Source: a virus
DNA: 64,000 nucleotides
Virus record (IMG/VR): IMGVR_UViG_3300008262_000201
Location: 1-64,000 of that record
Direction: 5' to 3' (one strand)
This document shows, one piece after another, positions 3,726-28,677 of the stretch. The translations under genes were made by a program, and so were the position numbers. The notes beneath the pieces were generated by a model that made no database searches, was not told the origin of the DNA, and saw only the letters and a program-made list of their open reading frames with translations. Within the stretch, counting starts at the first letter, position 1. Every line of letters begins with the position of its first letter.

Positions 3726-3977
3726 ATGCTTGTTTCCAAACTGATTGATCAACTACTTAAAGCACAGAACAAATACGGAGACTTTGACATTTGCGTTTGC
3801 GATTCTTCCGAAGCAAACAATGTCGAATCGATTACTGACGGAGTTGAGTTTAACTTTCGTTTGTTTAACGAGAAAACTTATGAAGAATTACCTGGAATTA
3901 GTTTTGAAGAAGAAGAAGAACAAGATGTTGATCACCAAAGTGCTAAGTACTTTGGTGTAATCTTCCGTGACTACTAA
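3726..3977 (+). CDS. Small acidic protein of the 'KLIDQLLKxxxxYGDFDI' type
   Basis: 83 residues. The N-terminal L-I-x-x-L-x-x-x-Q-x-x-Y-G-D-F-D-I-C-V pattern matches a common small phage protein family that begins with a helix followed by 'D..V.V' strands; function unknown. There is a strongly acidic run (SFEEEEEQDVD) near residue 60. It is driven by a family 1 leader. Confidence 0.75.
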   Translation: MLVSKLIDQLLKAQNKYGDFDICVCDSSEANNVESITDGVEFNFRLFNEKTYEELPGISFEEEEEQDVDHQSAKYFGVIFRDY

Positions 3978-3984
3978 TTAATAC

Positions 3985-4433: not shown

Positions 4434-4643
4434 ATGACATCCTCCAACACTCCTCGCATTCCCGACTCTCTTGACATGCAACGCTTGCAGGCCATGCAGC
4501 TTGTAGCGAAGATGAAGGAATCAGCCGAGAGACATGGCATTGGTTTCATTGGGGGCTTCATTGCTCCCAATGGAGAGAAATTTGTAATGACAAATATGGA
4601 TGACGATGATGCCATGGCACTCATGCCGGAGGATCTCAAGTGA
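4434..4643 (+). CDS. Unknown 69-residue protein
   Basis: N-terminal helix (SLDMQRLQAMQLVAKMKESAERHG), then a Gly-rich strand pair (IGFIGGFIAPNGEKFVMTN) and an acidic tail. Its stop overlaps the next ATG by 4 bp. The CAACTCAATTCAA leader carries no family 1 hairpin. Confidence 0.7.
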   Translation: MTSSNTPRIPDSLDMQRLQAMQLVAKMKESAERHGIGFIGGFIAPNGEKFVMTNMDDDDAMALMPEDLK

Positions 4644-4837
4644 CTAAGAAATCTCCCATTAGTTTTGATCGCACCATTCATGGTGTGAACATCACTGAAC
4701 ATGGTATCAAGTCAGTAAGTAAACAGATCAAGCTTGGTCCATTCCAACTGACTGTCAACGCCAGTCCCAATGGCGTCAAAGGATCAGTCAGTATCCCTGG
4801 CACAGGCTTGAGCATTCCAAACATTAAGTTAATCTAA
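4640..4837 (+). CDS. DUF4236-like small protein
   Basis: 65 residues. The segment KLGPFQLTVNASPNG...SVSIPGTGLSI resembles the 'LGP...LNLSKSGVSVS.G..G....IPGTGLSY' beta pattern of DUF4236. The short length suggests a single-domain version. Function unknown in the family. It overlaps the preceding gene (ATGA-type junction). Confidence 0.65.
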   Translation: MTKKSPISFDRTIHGVNITEHGIKSVSKQIKLGPFQLTVNASPNGVKGSVSIPGTGLSIPNIKLI

Positions 4838-4868
4838 AGATCTGGGCATCCTTACGGTGTAAGTCCCA
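4825..4868 (+). repeat. 44-bp direct repeat, copy 1, carrying leader hairpin g
   Basis: Identical to 5212-5255. It includes the stop codon of the preceding gene and most of a family 1 hairpin (4842-4868: TGGG/CCCA, CAT opposite TGTAAGT, inner CC-TTAC-GG). In this copy the outer C is opposite C and unpaired. The ATG at 4897 follows 28 nt later. Confidence 0.85.
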
Positions 4869-4896
4869 CATCCAACTTCCATCTCAACATAACACC

Positions 4897-5214
4897 ATGC
4901 CTAAGAAACAAGCACTCAATCCTCACTTCCCTACTGGTCCTAGAACTATTACTCTTGATCTGACTGAAGATCAATGGTGGGCATTGATTAACATGCTCAG
5001 AGCACGCACTGATTTCTATAAGAAGTTGCGGTTTGATCTCATTAGATTAAAGGATGATGGCCTTGAGAAACAAATTGATCAGTACACTGAATCCATGGAA
5101 GACATTGTATCTATATTGGAATCAGTACAAGAACAAGTAGCACCTTTGTATTACACAAAAGCAAAGCGTGCTGAGTGGCGTAAGCAACGTATTGATACAC
5201 CTGATTTCCCATAA
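4897..5214 (+). CDS. Unknown 105-residue helical protein
   Basis: Begins MPKKQALNPHFPTGPRTITLDLTEDQWWALINMLRARTDF. It then appears as a long helical, charge-rich region to the end. No family recognised. It has a family 1 leader and ends inside the second copy of the 44-bp repeat. Confidence 0.75.
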   Translation: MPKKQALNPHFPTGPRTITLDLTEDQWWALINMLRARTDFYKKLRFDLIRLKDDGLEKQIDQYTESMEDIVSILESVQEQVAPLYYTKAKRAEWRKQRIDTPDFP

Positions 5215-5256
5215 GTTAATCTAAAGATCTGGGCATCCTTACGGTGTAAGTCCCAG
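5212..5256 (+). repeat. 44-bp direct repeat, copy 2, with leader hairpin h
   Basis: Repeats 4825-4868 without a mismatch. The hairpin (5229-5256) has the full CTGGG/CCCAG stem. It is 31 nt before the ATG at 5288. The identity implies a recent duplication of the leader element together with its flank. Confidence 0.85.
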
Positions 5257-5287
5257 GTCTTGTCCACCAACTCAATTCAATTCAACC

Positions 5288-5473
5288 ATGGCTACCACAA
5301 ACACAAACCTCAGCTTGTTTGATCGCATCAATGTTGCACGCTGCGCAATGGAGCGTGCCCATAATAATCATTTTGATCGCGATCGTTTTGTTAGCGAGTA
5401 CACAACTGCAAAGATGTGGACTCGTTACAACTGCTACATCTCAACCACCGTTTCATTCGTGGAGCCTGACTGA
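5288..5473 (+). CDS. Unknown 61-residue protein
   Basis: Small, aromatic, with no motif. The stop TGA overlaps the next ATG (TGATG at 5471-5475), so the two are likely translationally coupled. It has a family 1 leader. Confidence 0.65.
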   Translation: MATTNTNLSLFDRINVARCAMERAHNNHFDRDRFVSEYTTAKMWTRYNCYISTTVSFVEPD

Positions 5474-5733
5474 TGACTGTCCTTGCTATCGAACACACAT
5501 CATTCACTGACACTCATGTCACAGTTACAGCAGTTGTTGACGACATGCGCCTACTCTATCGGGCGACTCGCTTCGAGCCTGAAGAGTGGGCTCCTGCACT
5601 GTGCACAACAACTATTGAGTTGGATCCAGAGGAACCGATTCCTCTTGACGAAGATGGCTTCTGCAGCTATCTTGATCAGCTCGATCCTCACTGGCAACTT
5701 GTTGACAACTCTGACTACGATCTAGATTCATGA
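5473..5733 (+). CDS. Unknown acidic 86-residue protein
   Basis: Strongly acidic with Trp, Tyr and Phe. The stop TGA (5731-5733) overlaps an ATG at 5730 that begins the truncated copy of the 6289 gene. No function recognised. Confidence 0.7.
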   Translation: MTVLAIEHTSFTDTHVTVTAVVDDMRLLYRATRFEPEEWAPALCTTTIELDPEEPIPLDEDGFCSYLDQLDPHWQLVDNSDYDLDS

Positions 5734-5774
5734 TTGGTTTCTCAATTGAATTCAAACGCTGGTACTTAAAATGA
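5730..5774 (+). pseudogene. Truncated N-terminal copy of the gene at 6289
   Basis: Reads MIGFSIEFKRWYLK then stop. The first nine residues are identical to the start of the protein at 6289 (MIGFSIEFKKFYF), but most codons differ synonymously. It overlaps the stop of the upstream gene exactly as the full-length copy overlaps the stop of the HNH gene. It is best explained as the left half of a gene interrupted by the endonuclease insertion. Confidence 0.75.
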
Positions 5775-6292
5775 AACACAAACCTATCCCAGAAGAAATT
5801 GTTGAATACTTAAAAGTTGATTTAACAATTCCACATGGATTACGTTGGATCAAGCTAGTACCAAACAATAACAGGTGCAAAGTTGGAGATCCAGCTGGAT
5901 CAAAATGTTCTAATGGTAAATATAATTTACATTACAAACGAATTAAATACTACAATCATCGAATAATTTTTTATCTTCAAAACAATTTAGATCCGGATTA
6001 TTATCAAGTAGATCATAAGATTCATGATGATAATACAGGAGAACTTCGCTTGGCAACCCATCAGCAAAATCATTTTAATCGTAGATCTTGTATTGGTTCT
6101 TCTTCTAAATACAAAGGCGTTTCATGGCATGCAAAAGACAAACGATGGGAAGCACGAATAGGATTTAACAATGAAATTATTTACATTGGTAAATACATAA
6201 ATGAAGAAGATGCTGCAATAGCTTATAACCATGAGGCTATAAAGCTTTTTGGTGATTATGCTTTTATTAACACATTAGCAGAATGTCAATGA
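5771..6292 (+). CDS. Free-standing HNH homing endonuclease with AP2 DNA-binding domain
   Basis: 173 residues. The HNH part (about 60-108) has YNHRIIFYLQNN ... VDHKIHDDNTGELRLATHQQN, matching the 'H+...D H.nr...dnR..NLR..T..qN' pattern. The AP2 part (about 111-165) has SKYKGVSWHAKDKRWEARIG ... IGKYINEEDAAIAYNHEAI. Such proteins cut intron- or insertion-less alleles and copy themselves. The gene is visibly AT-rich compared with its neighbours, consistent with transfer. It sits inside a duplicated gene start. Confidence 0.92.
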   Translation: MKHKPIPEEIVEYLKVDLTIPHGLRWIKLVPNNNRCKVGDPAGSKCSNGKYNLHYKRIKYYNHRIIFYLQNNLDPDYYQVDHKIHDDNTGELRLATHQQNHFNRRSCIGSSSKYKGVSWHAKDKRWEARIGFNNEIIYIGKYINEEDAAIAYNHEAIKLFGDYAFINTLAECQ

Positions 6293-6492
6293 TTGGATTT
6301 TCCATTGAGTTTAAAAAGTTTTATTTTGTACTGCGTGGTCCCAAGGGTCGAGTGTATCTGGCAACTGGCTTTGCTAAACGCATGCCAGTCATAATACTGA
6401 CCGGTGATTACATACTGGAGCAGTGCATCGGCACATGGCCTGGTGATGAGACTGACGAAGAACTTCTTGATCAGTTGAAAGACATCCGCTAA
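6289..6492 (+). CDS. Unknown small protein, interrupted and recoded by the HNH insertion
   Basis: 67 residues from the ATG at 6289, which overlaps the HNH stop (ATGA). The ATG at 6283 in the same frame is possible, but 6289 reproduces the N-terminus of the truncated copy at 5730. The first ~14 codons are AT-rich like the HNH gene; composition changes near 6330 at CTGCGTGGTCCC. Function unknown. Confidence 0.75.
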   Translation: MIGFSIEFKKFYFVLRGPKGRVYLATGFAKRMPVIILTGDYILEQCIGTWPGDETDEELLDQLKDIR

Positions 6493-6497
6493 TTAAC

Positions 6498-6524
6498 CGT
6501 CCTGGGCATGACGTTAAACTGCCT
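6498..6524 (+). promoter_or_regulatory. Leader pseudoknot, family 2, copy 1
   Basis: P1 CGTC/GACG encloses CT-GGGC-AT; after TTAAACT, GCCT (6521-6524) pairs with the loop GGGC to form P2. The ATG at 6548 is 23 nt later. Confidence 0.8.
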
Positions 6525-6547
6525 ATTCTACTTACTCATTTAACCCA

Positions 6548-6847
6548 ATGGAAATCAATTCTCCAACACCTCCTTTAGATCTTGTCAATGATTGGATGAC
6601 ACATTGGTATGACGATAACCAAACAGATGACACGCAACCGCTGTATATTGCAACTAAAGCTTCAATGTGGGGCGCAATCTGGGGTGCTACCAATGCTTTG
6701 GAAACAGCCATCCAAGACACGGCACCTGTTCATTGGCGCGTAGCTGGTGGGGCAGAAGATGGCCAACAGGTAGTACGTGTTATTGATTTAATGGAATGGC
6801 TTGCACAGTTCCGTAAAGAATACGAAGAAAAGATGTCTTGTAATTAA
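6548..6847 (+). CDS. Unknown 99-residue protein
   Basis: Trp-rich with normal composition (SMWGAIWGATNALE, RKEYEEKM at the end). No recognised family. The start is set by the pseudoknot leader. It is followed by a second family 2 pseudoknot serving the PcfJ-like gene. Confidence 0.75.
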   Translation: MEINSPTPPLDLVNDWMTHWYDDNQTDDTQPLYIATKASMWGAIWGATNALETAIQDTAPVHWRVAGGAEDGQQVVRVIDLMEWLAQFRKEYEEKMSCN

Positions 6848-6852
6848 TCAAC

Positions 6853-6879
6853 CGTCCTGGACATGACGCTAAACTGTCC
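6853..6879 (+). promoter_or_regulatory. Leader pseudoknot, family 2, copy 2
   Basis: P1 CGTC/GACG, loop CT-GGAC-AT, linker CTAAACT, P2' GTCC. The loop and P2' have both changed relative to copy 1 (GGGC/GCCT), preserving pairing. The ATG at 6903 is 23 nt later. Confidence 0.85.
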
Positions 6880-6902
6880 ATTCCACTTACCTACACTACA
6901 CC

Positions 6903-8642
6903 ATGCAATTCGCTCTGCCTTCCAATCTTCAGACTGAACTCTTGGCTTATGATCCAAAGCTCAAGGCTTTGGCTAAGCAAGCCAACAAACCAGAAGCCAA
7001 GAAACCGACGTATCCACTTGGCAAGATTCCTTGCTTGATACCAACACACATTGTGCGTGAAGCCGATCAGCAAGATGCAATTGCTCAGATCAATCAGCGT
7101 CCAGCACCACAGCGTTATCAAGTCTTTACTACACCTGTAGATGTAGCAACACCACAGGCTAGGCTCAAGGTCATTGCCATCCTGTATCACTACGAACAGG
7201 TGTGGTATGCAGCATGGTTACCTTCTAAGCAAGAGAAGGATCAGTATGTGTACGGTCATGCGTATGCATTCAAGAACACATCAGCTACACAGAAGACTGC
7301 ACCAAATTGGATATGGAATAGCAAAGATGATTGCGTTGTCCACGACATTGGTCGTGGCTCACAACTCTTTGTCTACACCAATACAGCAACCATAGAAGAT
7401 ATCCGCGAAAAAGATTACGATAGCTGGCGTAGTTATCCATGGCGAGCAGGTAACCTTTACTGCCAGAAGGGTTATACAATTCGTGATACTGTTGTTAATG
7501 AATTTGATAACAGCCTGCGGGAAAATCTCCCAACATGGGAAGATTCCCGTGGATTGTTTGATCGCATACGCTGCAAGAATATCTTTGATGCAGCAAACAT
7601 ACCGTCAATGATGTCAAAGCATCTTGATGAAACTCAAGGCTTGACTGTTGATAACTTCATTGCTGCTTCACTTGCATTCAAAGAAGAACACGGCTATAGC
7701 TCATTAACGTATTCTGTTGTCACAAAGATTCAGCACATTGTTACTAAACCTGCCATCAAGAAACTATTGCAAGCAGAGTTAAACCGTAGCATTGATGCAT
7801 ATAATGATCCCAATAACAAACACCAGCAACCTATTAGGCAAGGCTTTGCAACTTTTGTGCAGATCCTTAACTCAATCGAGTGGATTGATTCCATCTGGCC
7901 AGACTGCCCTATTGATTACTATCAGACTTATTTCAAAGAACTTAAGTATCTTCGCTTGACTGAAGTGCGTCTACGCAGTGGGGCTACACAAGAGCCTTGT
8001 TTAATCGACTGGTTACGTGAGCACATGCCTATTGCATCACTGTTTACAATCATGCGTAAGTACTTGGACAAACAACTTACTGAATACAATGGTCGCTGGG
8101 TTGACAGCGATGTTGGGTACCAGCGTCAACGCTTTGGTGAACTCAACGATACATTCTCCATGATGCTTAAGATCCTTCATGTTGGTAATACATTGGAGCC
8201 ACCGAAGCGTTGGCGTCTGACCGAGTTCCATGACTACGTACAATCCGAAGCATGGAAGATCCAGAATCCAAAGGAGTCCCTACGTCAAGATCTATTTCCT
8301 GAACCCATCAAAGTCACACGTCTTGATAGGGTATGGACATTCTTTCAGCCTGTTGACACACATCAACTATCCATGTGGGGGCAAGCCGTACGCAACTGCG
8401 TTGGCTCTGCATCCCACTATGCGGATGACATCAAGAAACGTAAGCACTTCATTGTGTTATGTATGATTGATAACAAGCCCACCTTCACAATTCAATTGGT
8501 TGTGGACCAGGGTATGATGTCAGTCAAGCAGATTGCTGGCGTTGGCAATCGCAGTCTTGACTCAATAGAACGCAACGATTACACGGAAGCCTTCCGTGAG
8601 GTCTTGCAATTGCGTGAATCTGAGCTAAGCTCTAAGAGCTGA
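6903..8642 (+). CDS. PcfJ-domain-like large protein
   Basis: 579 residues. The C-terminal region (about 490-550) carries a PcfJ-like signature: W-G-x-x-V-R-N-C-V-G-S ... ADDIKKRKHFIVLC...KPTFTIQL..., followed by V-K-Q-I-A-G-V-G-N-R. PcfJ domains occur in conjugative elements and phages; their biochemical role is not settled. The ~480-residue N-terminal part has no recognised motif. Start set by the family 2 leader. A hairpin terminator follows at 8655. Confidence 0.8.
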   Translation: MQFALPSNLQTELLAYDPKLKALAKQANKPEAKKPTYPLGKIPCLIPTHIVREADQQDAIAQINQRPAPQRYQVFTTPVDVATPQARLKVIAILYHYEQVWYAAWLPSKQEKDQYVYGHAYAFKNTSATQKTAPNWIWNSKDDCVVHDIGRGSQLFVYTNTATIEDIREKDYDSWRSYPWRAGNLYCQKGYTIRDTVVNEFDNSLRENLPTWEDSRGLFDRIRCKNIFDAANIPSMMSKHLDETQGLTVDNFIAASLAFKEEHGYSSLTYSVVTKIQHIVTKPAIKKLLQAELNRSIDAYNDPNNKHQQPIRQGFATFVQILNSIEWIDSIWPDCPIDYYQTYFKELKYLRLTEVRLRSGATQEPCLIDWLREHMPIASLFTIMRKYLDKQLTEYNGRWVDSDVGYQRQRFGELNDTFSMMLKILHVGNTLEPPKRWRLTEFHDYVQSEAWKIQNPKESLRQDLFPEPIKVTRLDRVWTFFQPVDTHQLSMWGQAVRNCVGSASHYADDIKKRKHFIVLCMIDNKPTFTIQLVVDQGMMSVKQIAGVGNRSLDSIERNDYTEAFREVLQLRESELSSKS

Positions 8643-8691: not shown

Positions 8692-8901
8692 ATGGACTAC
8701 ACCGATGACCAACTACTTGCCATGGCCATGGCCAACATTGGTGAGTACATTACGGACAACTCACCGCAGTACATCTTGATTGAAGAAGATCCTCGCAATG
8801 AGGATGACTACGATAGCTGGACTTACGGAATGGAAGTCCTGCCTCAAGATCACACTTGGCAGTCAGATTCAATTGACGTAAGCCCAAGTGAGGCCGACTA
8901 G
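8692..8901 (+). CDS. Unknown very acidic 69-residue protein
   Basis: Very acidic, including EEDPRNEDDYDSW, with no motif. The TAG stop (8899-8901) lies inside the tRNA-Leu gene, so the last three codons double as the tRNA acceptor 5' strand. Confidence 0.65.
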   Translation: MDYTDDQLLAMAMANIGEYITDNSPQYILIEEDPRNEDDYDSWTYGMEVLPQDHTWQSDSIDVSPSEAD

Positions 8902-8967
8902 CCCAACGGCAGAGGCAAGCGACTTAAAATCGCTACAGTCCCGGTTCGAATCCGGGGTCGGCTACCA
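8892..8967 (+). tRNA. tRNA-Leu (anticodon UAA), short variable loop, CCA encoded
   Basis: Acceptor GGCCGAC (8892-8898)/GTCGGCT (8957-8963), D stem GCC/GGC, anticodon stem AGCGA/TCGCT with loop CTTAAAA (anticodon TAA), T arm CCCGG-TTCGAAT-CCGGG, discriminator A and genomic CCA (8965-8967). The variable region is only ACAGT, whereas standard bacterial tRNA-Leu has a long variable arm. It overlaps the end of the preceding gene and lies 18 nt before the next ATG. Confidence 0.9.
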
Positions 8968-16602: not shown

Positions 16603-16608
16603 GCTCTT

Positions 16609-16635
16609 CGTCCTAAGTATGACGCTAAACTACTT
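16609..16635 (+). promoter_or_regulatory. Leader pseudoknot, family 2, copy 4
   Basis: P1 CGTC/GACG, loop CT-AAGT-AT, linker CTAAACT, P2' ACTT. P2 AAGT/ACTT differs from the other copies at all four positions yet still pairs fully. The ATG at 16656 (SSB) is 20 nt later. Confidence 0.85.
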
Positions 16636-16655
16636 ATCACCTACTGTTTGAACAC

Positions 16656-17913: not shown

Positions 17914-17918
17914 TGATT

Positions 17919-17945
17919 CGTCCTGAGCATGACGTTAAACTGCTT
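17919..17945 (+). promoter_or_regulatory. Leader pseudoknot, family 2, copy 5
   Basis: P1 CGTC/GACG, loop CT-GAGC-AT, linker TTAAACT, P2' GCTT (pairs GAGC through one G-U). The ATG at 17967 is 21 nt later, which fixes that start over upstream in-frame 17910. Confidence 0.8.
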
Positions 17946-17966
17946 ACTCCTGACTACGAAACAACC

Positions 17967-28605: not shown

Positions 28606-28607
28606 AT

Positions 28608-28677
28608 CGGGATGGAAGGTACTGCCCCTTCTCCTTTGCGTCCCAAACGCAATGTGATACTTTTCTACTACATCCCG
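28608..28677 (-). tRNA. tRNA-Pro-like (anticodon UGG) with aberrant T loop
   Basis: Acceptor CGGGATG/CATCCCG, anticodon stem TTGCG/CGCAA with loop TTTGGGA (anticodon TGG) and T stem GAAGG/CCTTC are present. The T loop is GGCAGTA instead of the usual TTC-containing loop, and the D stem is weak. It lies 2 nt from the neighbouring tRNA-like gene. Confidence 0.65.

Follow-up and report, generated by a model that had tools for sequence, protein, structure and literature searches.

In the window, by which we mean the whole 64,000-nucleotide stretch of DNA analysed here, an endonuclease gene is inserted within the start of another gene, gene B, and a second, recoded version of that gene start follows the endonuclease gene directly. 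The stretch comes from an IMG/VR virus record of 64,223 bases, an S-EIV1-like cyanophage whose closest isolate is Synechococcus phage S-EIV1. We consider it highly likely that the insert is a homing-endonuclease cassette which sits in coding sequence and keeps its host gene alive by means of a diverged copy of the gene end that it severs. Comparison of sequences argues for this reading through defined junctions that are present in some genomes and absent from others, reading frames that are kept by the replacement ends, native remnants that are nearer to the relatives, and a replacement tail that is associated with the endonuclease. The window is a single example of a broader pattern, which includes gene ends. 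Endonuclease genes with replacement gene ends have previously been described mainly in fungal mitochondria, and the arrangement shows a way for a homing endonuclease gene to live inside a coding sequence without an intron or intein.

All parts of the locus lie on the + strand. Gene A (5473..5733, 86 aa) ends in a TGA that overlaps, as ATGA, the ATG of the native gene B start (5730..5767), which is stranded to the left of the insert as a 14-codon mini-ORF (MIGFSIEFKRWYLK). The TGA of this mini-ORF overlaps the ATG of the HNH-AP2 homing-endonuclease-like gene (5771..6292, 173 aa; phrog_99, AP2 and AlphaFold), whose stop overlaps the replacement start of gene B (6289..6326), and the native body of gene B follows (6327..6492; gene B has 67 aa in all). 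The earlier note, made from the letters of the window alone, had pointed to the first and last of these ATGA overlaps, both of which are present, the last as CAATGATT, but had missed the middle one, between mini-ORF and endonuclease (AAAATGAAA). All four reading frames of the locus are linked by stop/start overlaps, which suggests translational coupling, as discussed for mobE of T4 (PMC2988022). Because relatives carry a single start, the inserted unit can be taken as the 559 bp from about 5768 to 6326, that is, the endonuclease gene plus the replacement gene start, with a junction that is uncertain by 2-3 T.

The left copy of the gene start (5730-5767) reads ATG ATT GGT TTC TCA ATT GAA TTC AAA CGC TGG TAC TT, followed by AAAATGAAAC, and the right copy (6289-6326) reads ATG ATT GGA TTT TCC ATT GAG TTT AAA AAG TTT TAT TT, followed by the native TGTACTGCGTGG. 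The sequence confirms what had been said before: the gene start is present twice, with the left copy truncated, and five of the first nine codons differ, all synonymously, the residues being identical. Over 12 codons, four are identical, six differ synonymously and two non-synonymously (R>K and W>F), the sixth synonymous change being that of codon 12 (TAC/TAT), beyond the first nine; the copies share 69% nucleotide identity, with 10/12 residues unchanged. The switch to the endonuclease gene comes after 38 nt of the gene B start. When the flanks are joined at 5767/6327 the native gene B reappears, encoding MIGFSIEFKRWYFVLRGPKG and matching the relatives (189/204 nt identical to L004), in support of the earlier proposal that the endonuclease gene had inserted into another gene. 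The endonuclease brings its own copy of the gene start, and gene B would therefore still work without splicing.

A group I intron or intein, with the two copies as exon boundaries, is an extremely improbable account of this arrangement, and we rejected it. Similar endonucleases do accompany group I introns, as at L145, and the spanin gene of phage Bas86 is annotated as a two-piece join, but a search of positions 5200-7000 against Rfam gave no match at E<=1 that would point to self-splicing, whereas at L145 that search does detect two group I introns. No group I intron was detected at the window site or at four other loci, while the positive control elsewhere was detected. Moreover, the left ORF has its own stop before the endonuclease, the right gene has its own start, and the replacement copy makes splicing unnecessary.

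In order to place the two starts among relatives, we searched IMG/VR with a degenerate pattern over the possible codons of MIGFS-x-EFK, which returned 48 stretches with this gene start. Endonuclease-less relatives with both copies had been named beforehand as the observation that would refute the insertion; 46 of the 48 stretches hold one copy each, and the two records that hold both are 99.97-100% identical to the window over >10 kb. They therefore represent the same virus population, with a single insertion seen three times, and the window insertion is one event in one virus population. In about 20 relatives, and in the isolate S-EIV1 with its single start, gene A runs straight into an uninterrupted gene B, in the 20 or so relatives with the same ATGA overlap; the predicted adjacency of the two genes where the endonuclease is missing thus holds. 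So does the statement that the endonuclease came together with an altered gene start, since other records have a single start and only the window population has both.

The distances of the two copies from these relatives are very different. Across 39 nt, the closer relatives are 0-7 nt away from the left copy and the most distant up to 11 nt (35/36 nt are identical to L005), whereas the right copy is 10-14 nt from nearly every relative and 9 nt from one, that is, 9-14 of 39 nt from every one of them; the next 60 nt of gene B, after the right copy, are again 2-4 nt from the nearest relatives. This contrast is not due to chance (Fisher p = 2e-4). The residues KKFY of the replacement start occur in no relative compared, and the IMG/VR pattern search found no donor with the recoded start of the window.

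The same comparisons bear on two further explanations, both of which we rejected. One is that the gene start was duplicated locally and then drifted, and that the endonuclease happened to insert between the two copies; this would account for two related copies flanking the endonuclease. It is nevertheless very improbable, because no relative has the duplication but lacks the endonuclease, and because the diverged copy sits on the intact gene body while the truncated remnant is conserved, the reverse of what drift would be expected to produce in a spare copy. The other is an assembly artefact joining two related phages, which would suit the metagenomic origin of the contigs of the window and its closest relatives. 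Such an artefact is scarcely credible, however, because the junctions recur in three records and the architecture is also seen in isolated phages.

The protein encoded by the insert matches phrog_99 (E 8e-38) and has an AP2 domain that scores below the Pfam cut-off (E 7e-7). Its AlphaFold model (pLDDT 89) contains an HNH beta-beta-alpha unit and an AP2 fold, and profile and fold searches match I-HmuI and plant AP2, the fold match to I-HmuI being weak (E 0.22). The gene has a GC content of 32%, compared with 45% for the window. The protein thus combines the N-terminal HNH beta-beta-alpha unit and C-terminal AP2 domain of the HNH-AP2 (HNN-AP2 / IPA-HNH) endonucleases. The catalytic H-N-N motif, however, is incomplete: D81, H82 and N100 are kept, the central Asn is missing from residues 81-100, and the motif loop is about three residues shorter than usual; the related L167 protein likewise has no central asparagine. 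We therefore treat the protein as a putative enzyme and as a relative or derived member of the family by fold and profile. Its activity is doubtful, and it may be inactive, because of the missing asparagine; the shortened loop and the lost asparagine could reflect a variant active site or else decay that followed the insertion. The pattern of presence and absence of the insert fits homing.

Replacement gene ends of the same kind occur in other phages. In a second S-EIV1-like phage (L167/L268), it is the end of the upstream gene that has been replaced, by GYVPFPGVALPQLKSAIKKQ, and the native tail remnant is fused in frame to an endonuclease that is 40% identical to that of the window. Over 21 codons, the two tail copies have 15 synonymous and two non-synonymous differences; the replacement tail is 16-29 of 60 nt from every relative, compared with 4-5 nt between the remnant and its nearest relatives, and 33 relatives have one copy at this site. 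A further gene start is affected at L400/L491, where the stranded left start matches the empty relative L492 (ITKTNLKELTIFKLYEH) and the right start is altered (LIKTDLTKLSIFKLYET); the site is uninterrupted in S-EIV1 and others. At the marine locus L196, which fits the replacement-end architecture, the downstream remnant YEPQFVSL resembles the tail YEPEFVSL of Roseobacter phage CRP-13 and the upstream copy is altered.

The 3' end of the DNA polymerase gene allowed a comparison across many genomes, with an endonuclease gene directly downstream in 6/74 loci. A polymerase tail of the form WY[DE]VH is found in five of the six loci with the endonuclease and in one of the 68 without (Fisher p = 2e-6, a value that ignores phylogeny). 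The native tail remnant is kept in three loci, L379 (frameshifted), L427 and L430; the same search found none behind the endonuclease in L449, L464 and L481, which are perhaps older insertions with a decayed remnant. The polymerases with an endonuclease differ for the most part in which endonuclease-less relative is nearest to them, and all of these relatives have the usual W[AS][DEQ]TH tail. The five endonucleases associated with WY[DE]VH share 55-75% identity with one another. The clearest case is L481, with a polymerase body 97% identical to an endonuclease-less relative, a tail only 59% identical, and an endonuclease 58-71% identical to those of the four other WY[DE]VH loci. These comparisons show that the replacement tail travels with the endonuclease across divergent phages.

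In the coliphages E20-1, EK010, SU7 and Bas86, the endonuclease gene lies within the overlapping spanin genes, whereas the spanin genes of UKE3 and ECBP2 have none. The flanks of the cassette in SU7 are identical to UKE3 at 299/300 and 200/200 positions, and the 17 codons of the SU7 replacement i-spanin tail contain 10 synonymous and three non-synonymous changes. The 3' end of the endonuclease gene also encodes, in another frame, a new o-spanin lipoprotein-type signal that ends at the conserved cysteine, and both spanin genes stay open. In the Bas86 record (L265, 469-1361), the i-spanin annotation joins two pieces across the endonuclease gene; given the replacement tail, a spliced join is unnecessary, and the case is a caution that such loci can be misannotated. 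The near-isogenic pair SU7/UKE3 and the collection phage Bas86 open the mechanism to direct test in E. coli.

For 129 related endonuclease genes, found by scanning with a tighter three-sequence alignment (alignment A1 was dropped as too divergent), we compared the peptides encoded to the left and to the right of the gene, with cross-locus pairs as the null. The null scores had a mean of 28 and a maximum of 41, compared with 55 for the flank repeat of the window. Six loci score >=52, one of them (L145) an intron artefact, and with this removed the architecture is present in 5/129 endonuclease loci of the broad sample. A second scan covered S-EIV1-like records, whose null contains redundant loci, making its maximum of 194 unusable and its percentiles (37 and 47) usable; here the architecture was found in roughly 9/44 loci, a partly redundant sample and again a minority. 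Among 209 control ORFs other than endonucleases, four score >=50, and the ones viewed seem to be repeats of non-coding DNA, not copies of adjacent coding ends. Two loci were not counted as proven: L387, whose gene is repetitive, and L399, whose gene has few relatives. Candidate replaced gene ends were seen beside endonuclease genes at L374, L344, L399 and L242. The high flank score of L145 arises instead from a pair of group I introns, at 3768-3979 and 4482-4889, which flank an HNH-AP2 endonuclease gene.

Sequence comparison places the 559-bp unit at codons 12/13 of gene B, where it separates the native start from the remainder of the gene, and the replacement start restores the frame. We propose that the endonuclease would cut uninterrupted alleles at the junction, and that repair from a cassette-bearing genome would copy both the endonuclease and the replacement end. 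The gene body would serve as one homology arm, and the remnant plus adjoining DNA as the other. The replacement end would then take the role that self-splicing has for introns. The synonymous divergence of the replacement end would prevent re-cutting. It would also keep the broken end from pairing with the replacement copy close by, a pairing that would let repair finish without the endonuclease. The earlier suggestion that the altered start is cleavage-resistant is plausible, and its divergence fits equally well with an origin in another phage lineage or with blocked pairing of the broken end with the new copy. Since L478 has a similar tail without an endonuclease, the replacement end was probably captured from a homologous gene of another phage lineage. 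The polymerase in question (L478:2128 onward), with its WYDVH tail and no endonuclease downstream, may represent a donor lineage or a past loss.

Such a capture might also have been passive, with an endonuclease lying beside gene B in a divergent phage and ordinary recombination dragging the gene start along, so that the differences between the copies are lineage divergence and have no role in homing. This is a serious possibility, if one that we think falls short of an even chance. The replacement ends do resemble natural homologues, with 2/12 to 8/15 residues changed, and the endonuclease-free WYDVH polymerase of L478 is a possible relative of the donor lineage. Left unexplained, however, is why, at independent sites, the replaced segment always lies directly against the endonuclease and stops close to the insertion point, and why the native remnant is often retained there; passive capture accounts for the origin of the copy more than it rivals the cassette model. 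Returning to that model, we somewhat favour the wider view that a general class of homing elements, so far unrecognised, exists in tailed phages. Such elements would invade conserved coding sequence without splicing by carrying diverged replacement gene ends, 5', 3' or, for overlapping genes, both, and the synonymous divergence would itself be selected, blocking both re-cutting and endonuclease-losing repair. Cassettes of the kind seen here give one way to explain phage genes whose ends have been abruptly swapped.

The closest known counterparts are the mORFs of fungal mitochondria, described in atp6 of Allomyces macrogynus and in atp6, atp9, cox2 and nad3 of Glomus, where inserted C-termini have 64-81% DNA identity and 94-100% protein identity to a relative (PMC3630166). 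As in the window, an endonuclease gene lies in a conserved gene, a foreign gene end has been carried along and a native remnant, nearer to the relatives, is left. Unlike the window, mORFs are mitochondrial, encode LAGLIDADG or GIY-YIG enzymes and replace C-terminal ends only (PMC3630166), whereas the window has a phage gene start replaced beside an HNH-AP2 enzyme; gene-end cases occur in the other phages. The window insert therefore works like a mORF, but we do not file it as one. In the T5-group phages Shivani and phiR201, a GIY-YIG endonuclease gene separates the spanins (PMC6139136), much as in the coliphages above: it lies between i-spanin and o-spanin, and the differences are confined to the C-terminus of the i-spanin and the lipoprotein signal of the o-spanin. 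The authors presented that case as a switch of the two genes from overlapping to separated or the reverse, not as a cassette re-supplying gene ends, and gave no general model (PMC6139136).

The free-standing Seg and Mob endonucleases of T4 are often promoterless, cut neighbouring genes and in some cases, such as mobE, overlap the upstream stop; the available part of that account lists them as lying between genes and describes no re-supplied gene ends (PMC2988022). The insertion point in the window is inside gene B, not between intact genes. The HNN-AP2 / IPA-HNH endonucleases of Xop411 and ICP1 are of the same HNH plus AP2 protein kind as that of the window, and gene-end replacement is not mentioned in the accessible portions of these accounts (PMC2248197, PMC10448857), in which the Xop411 authors inferred sequence-independent spread from non-conserved flanks (PMC2248197). 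In the literature searched, mostly outside subscription journals, we came across no account of gene starts being replaced or of a general class in phages, and both the replacement of gene starts and the recurrence of the architecture in phages appear to be new.

Gene B is missing after gene A in L012-L014, L016, L017, L026-L033 and others, and is therefore probably dispensable. Beyond it, an intergenic hairpin with the fixed loop TGACG[CT]TAAAC is repeated at 6497-6531, 6852-6886, 16608-16642 and 17918-17952. It gave no Rfam match, and its stems covary in S-EIV1-like phages (GGGCA/TGCCC, GAGCA/TGCTC, GGACA/TGTCC), making it a possible conserved RNA or regulatory element. The window also carries a tRNA-Leu(TAA) and a second tRNA, at 8892-8967 and 28607-28677 (-), the second recognised by Rfam and not by ARAGORN. 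In the same gene cluster, 6903-8642 encodes a protein of 579 residues, whose PcfJ-like domain narrowly exceeds the Pfam cut-off.
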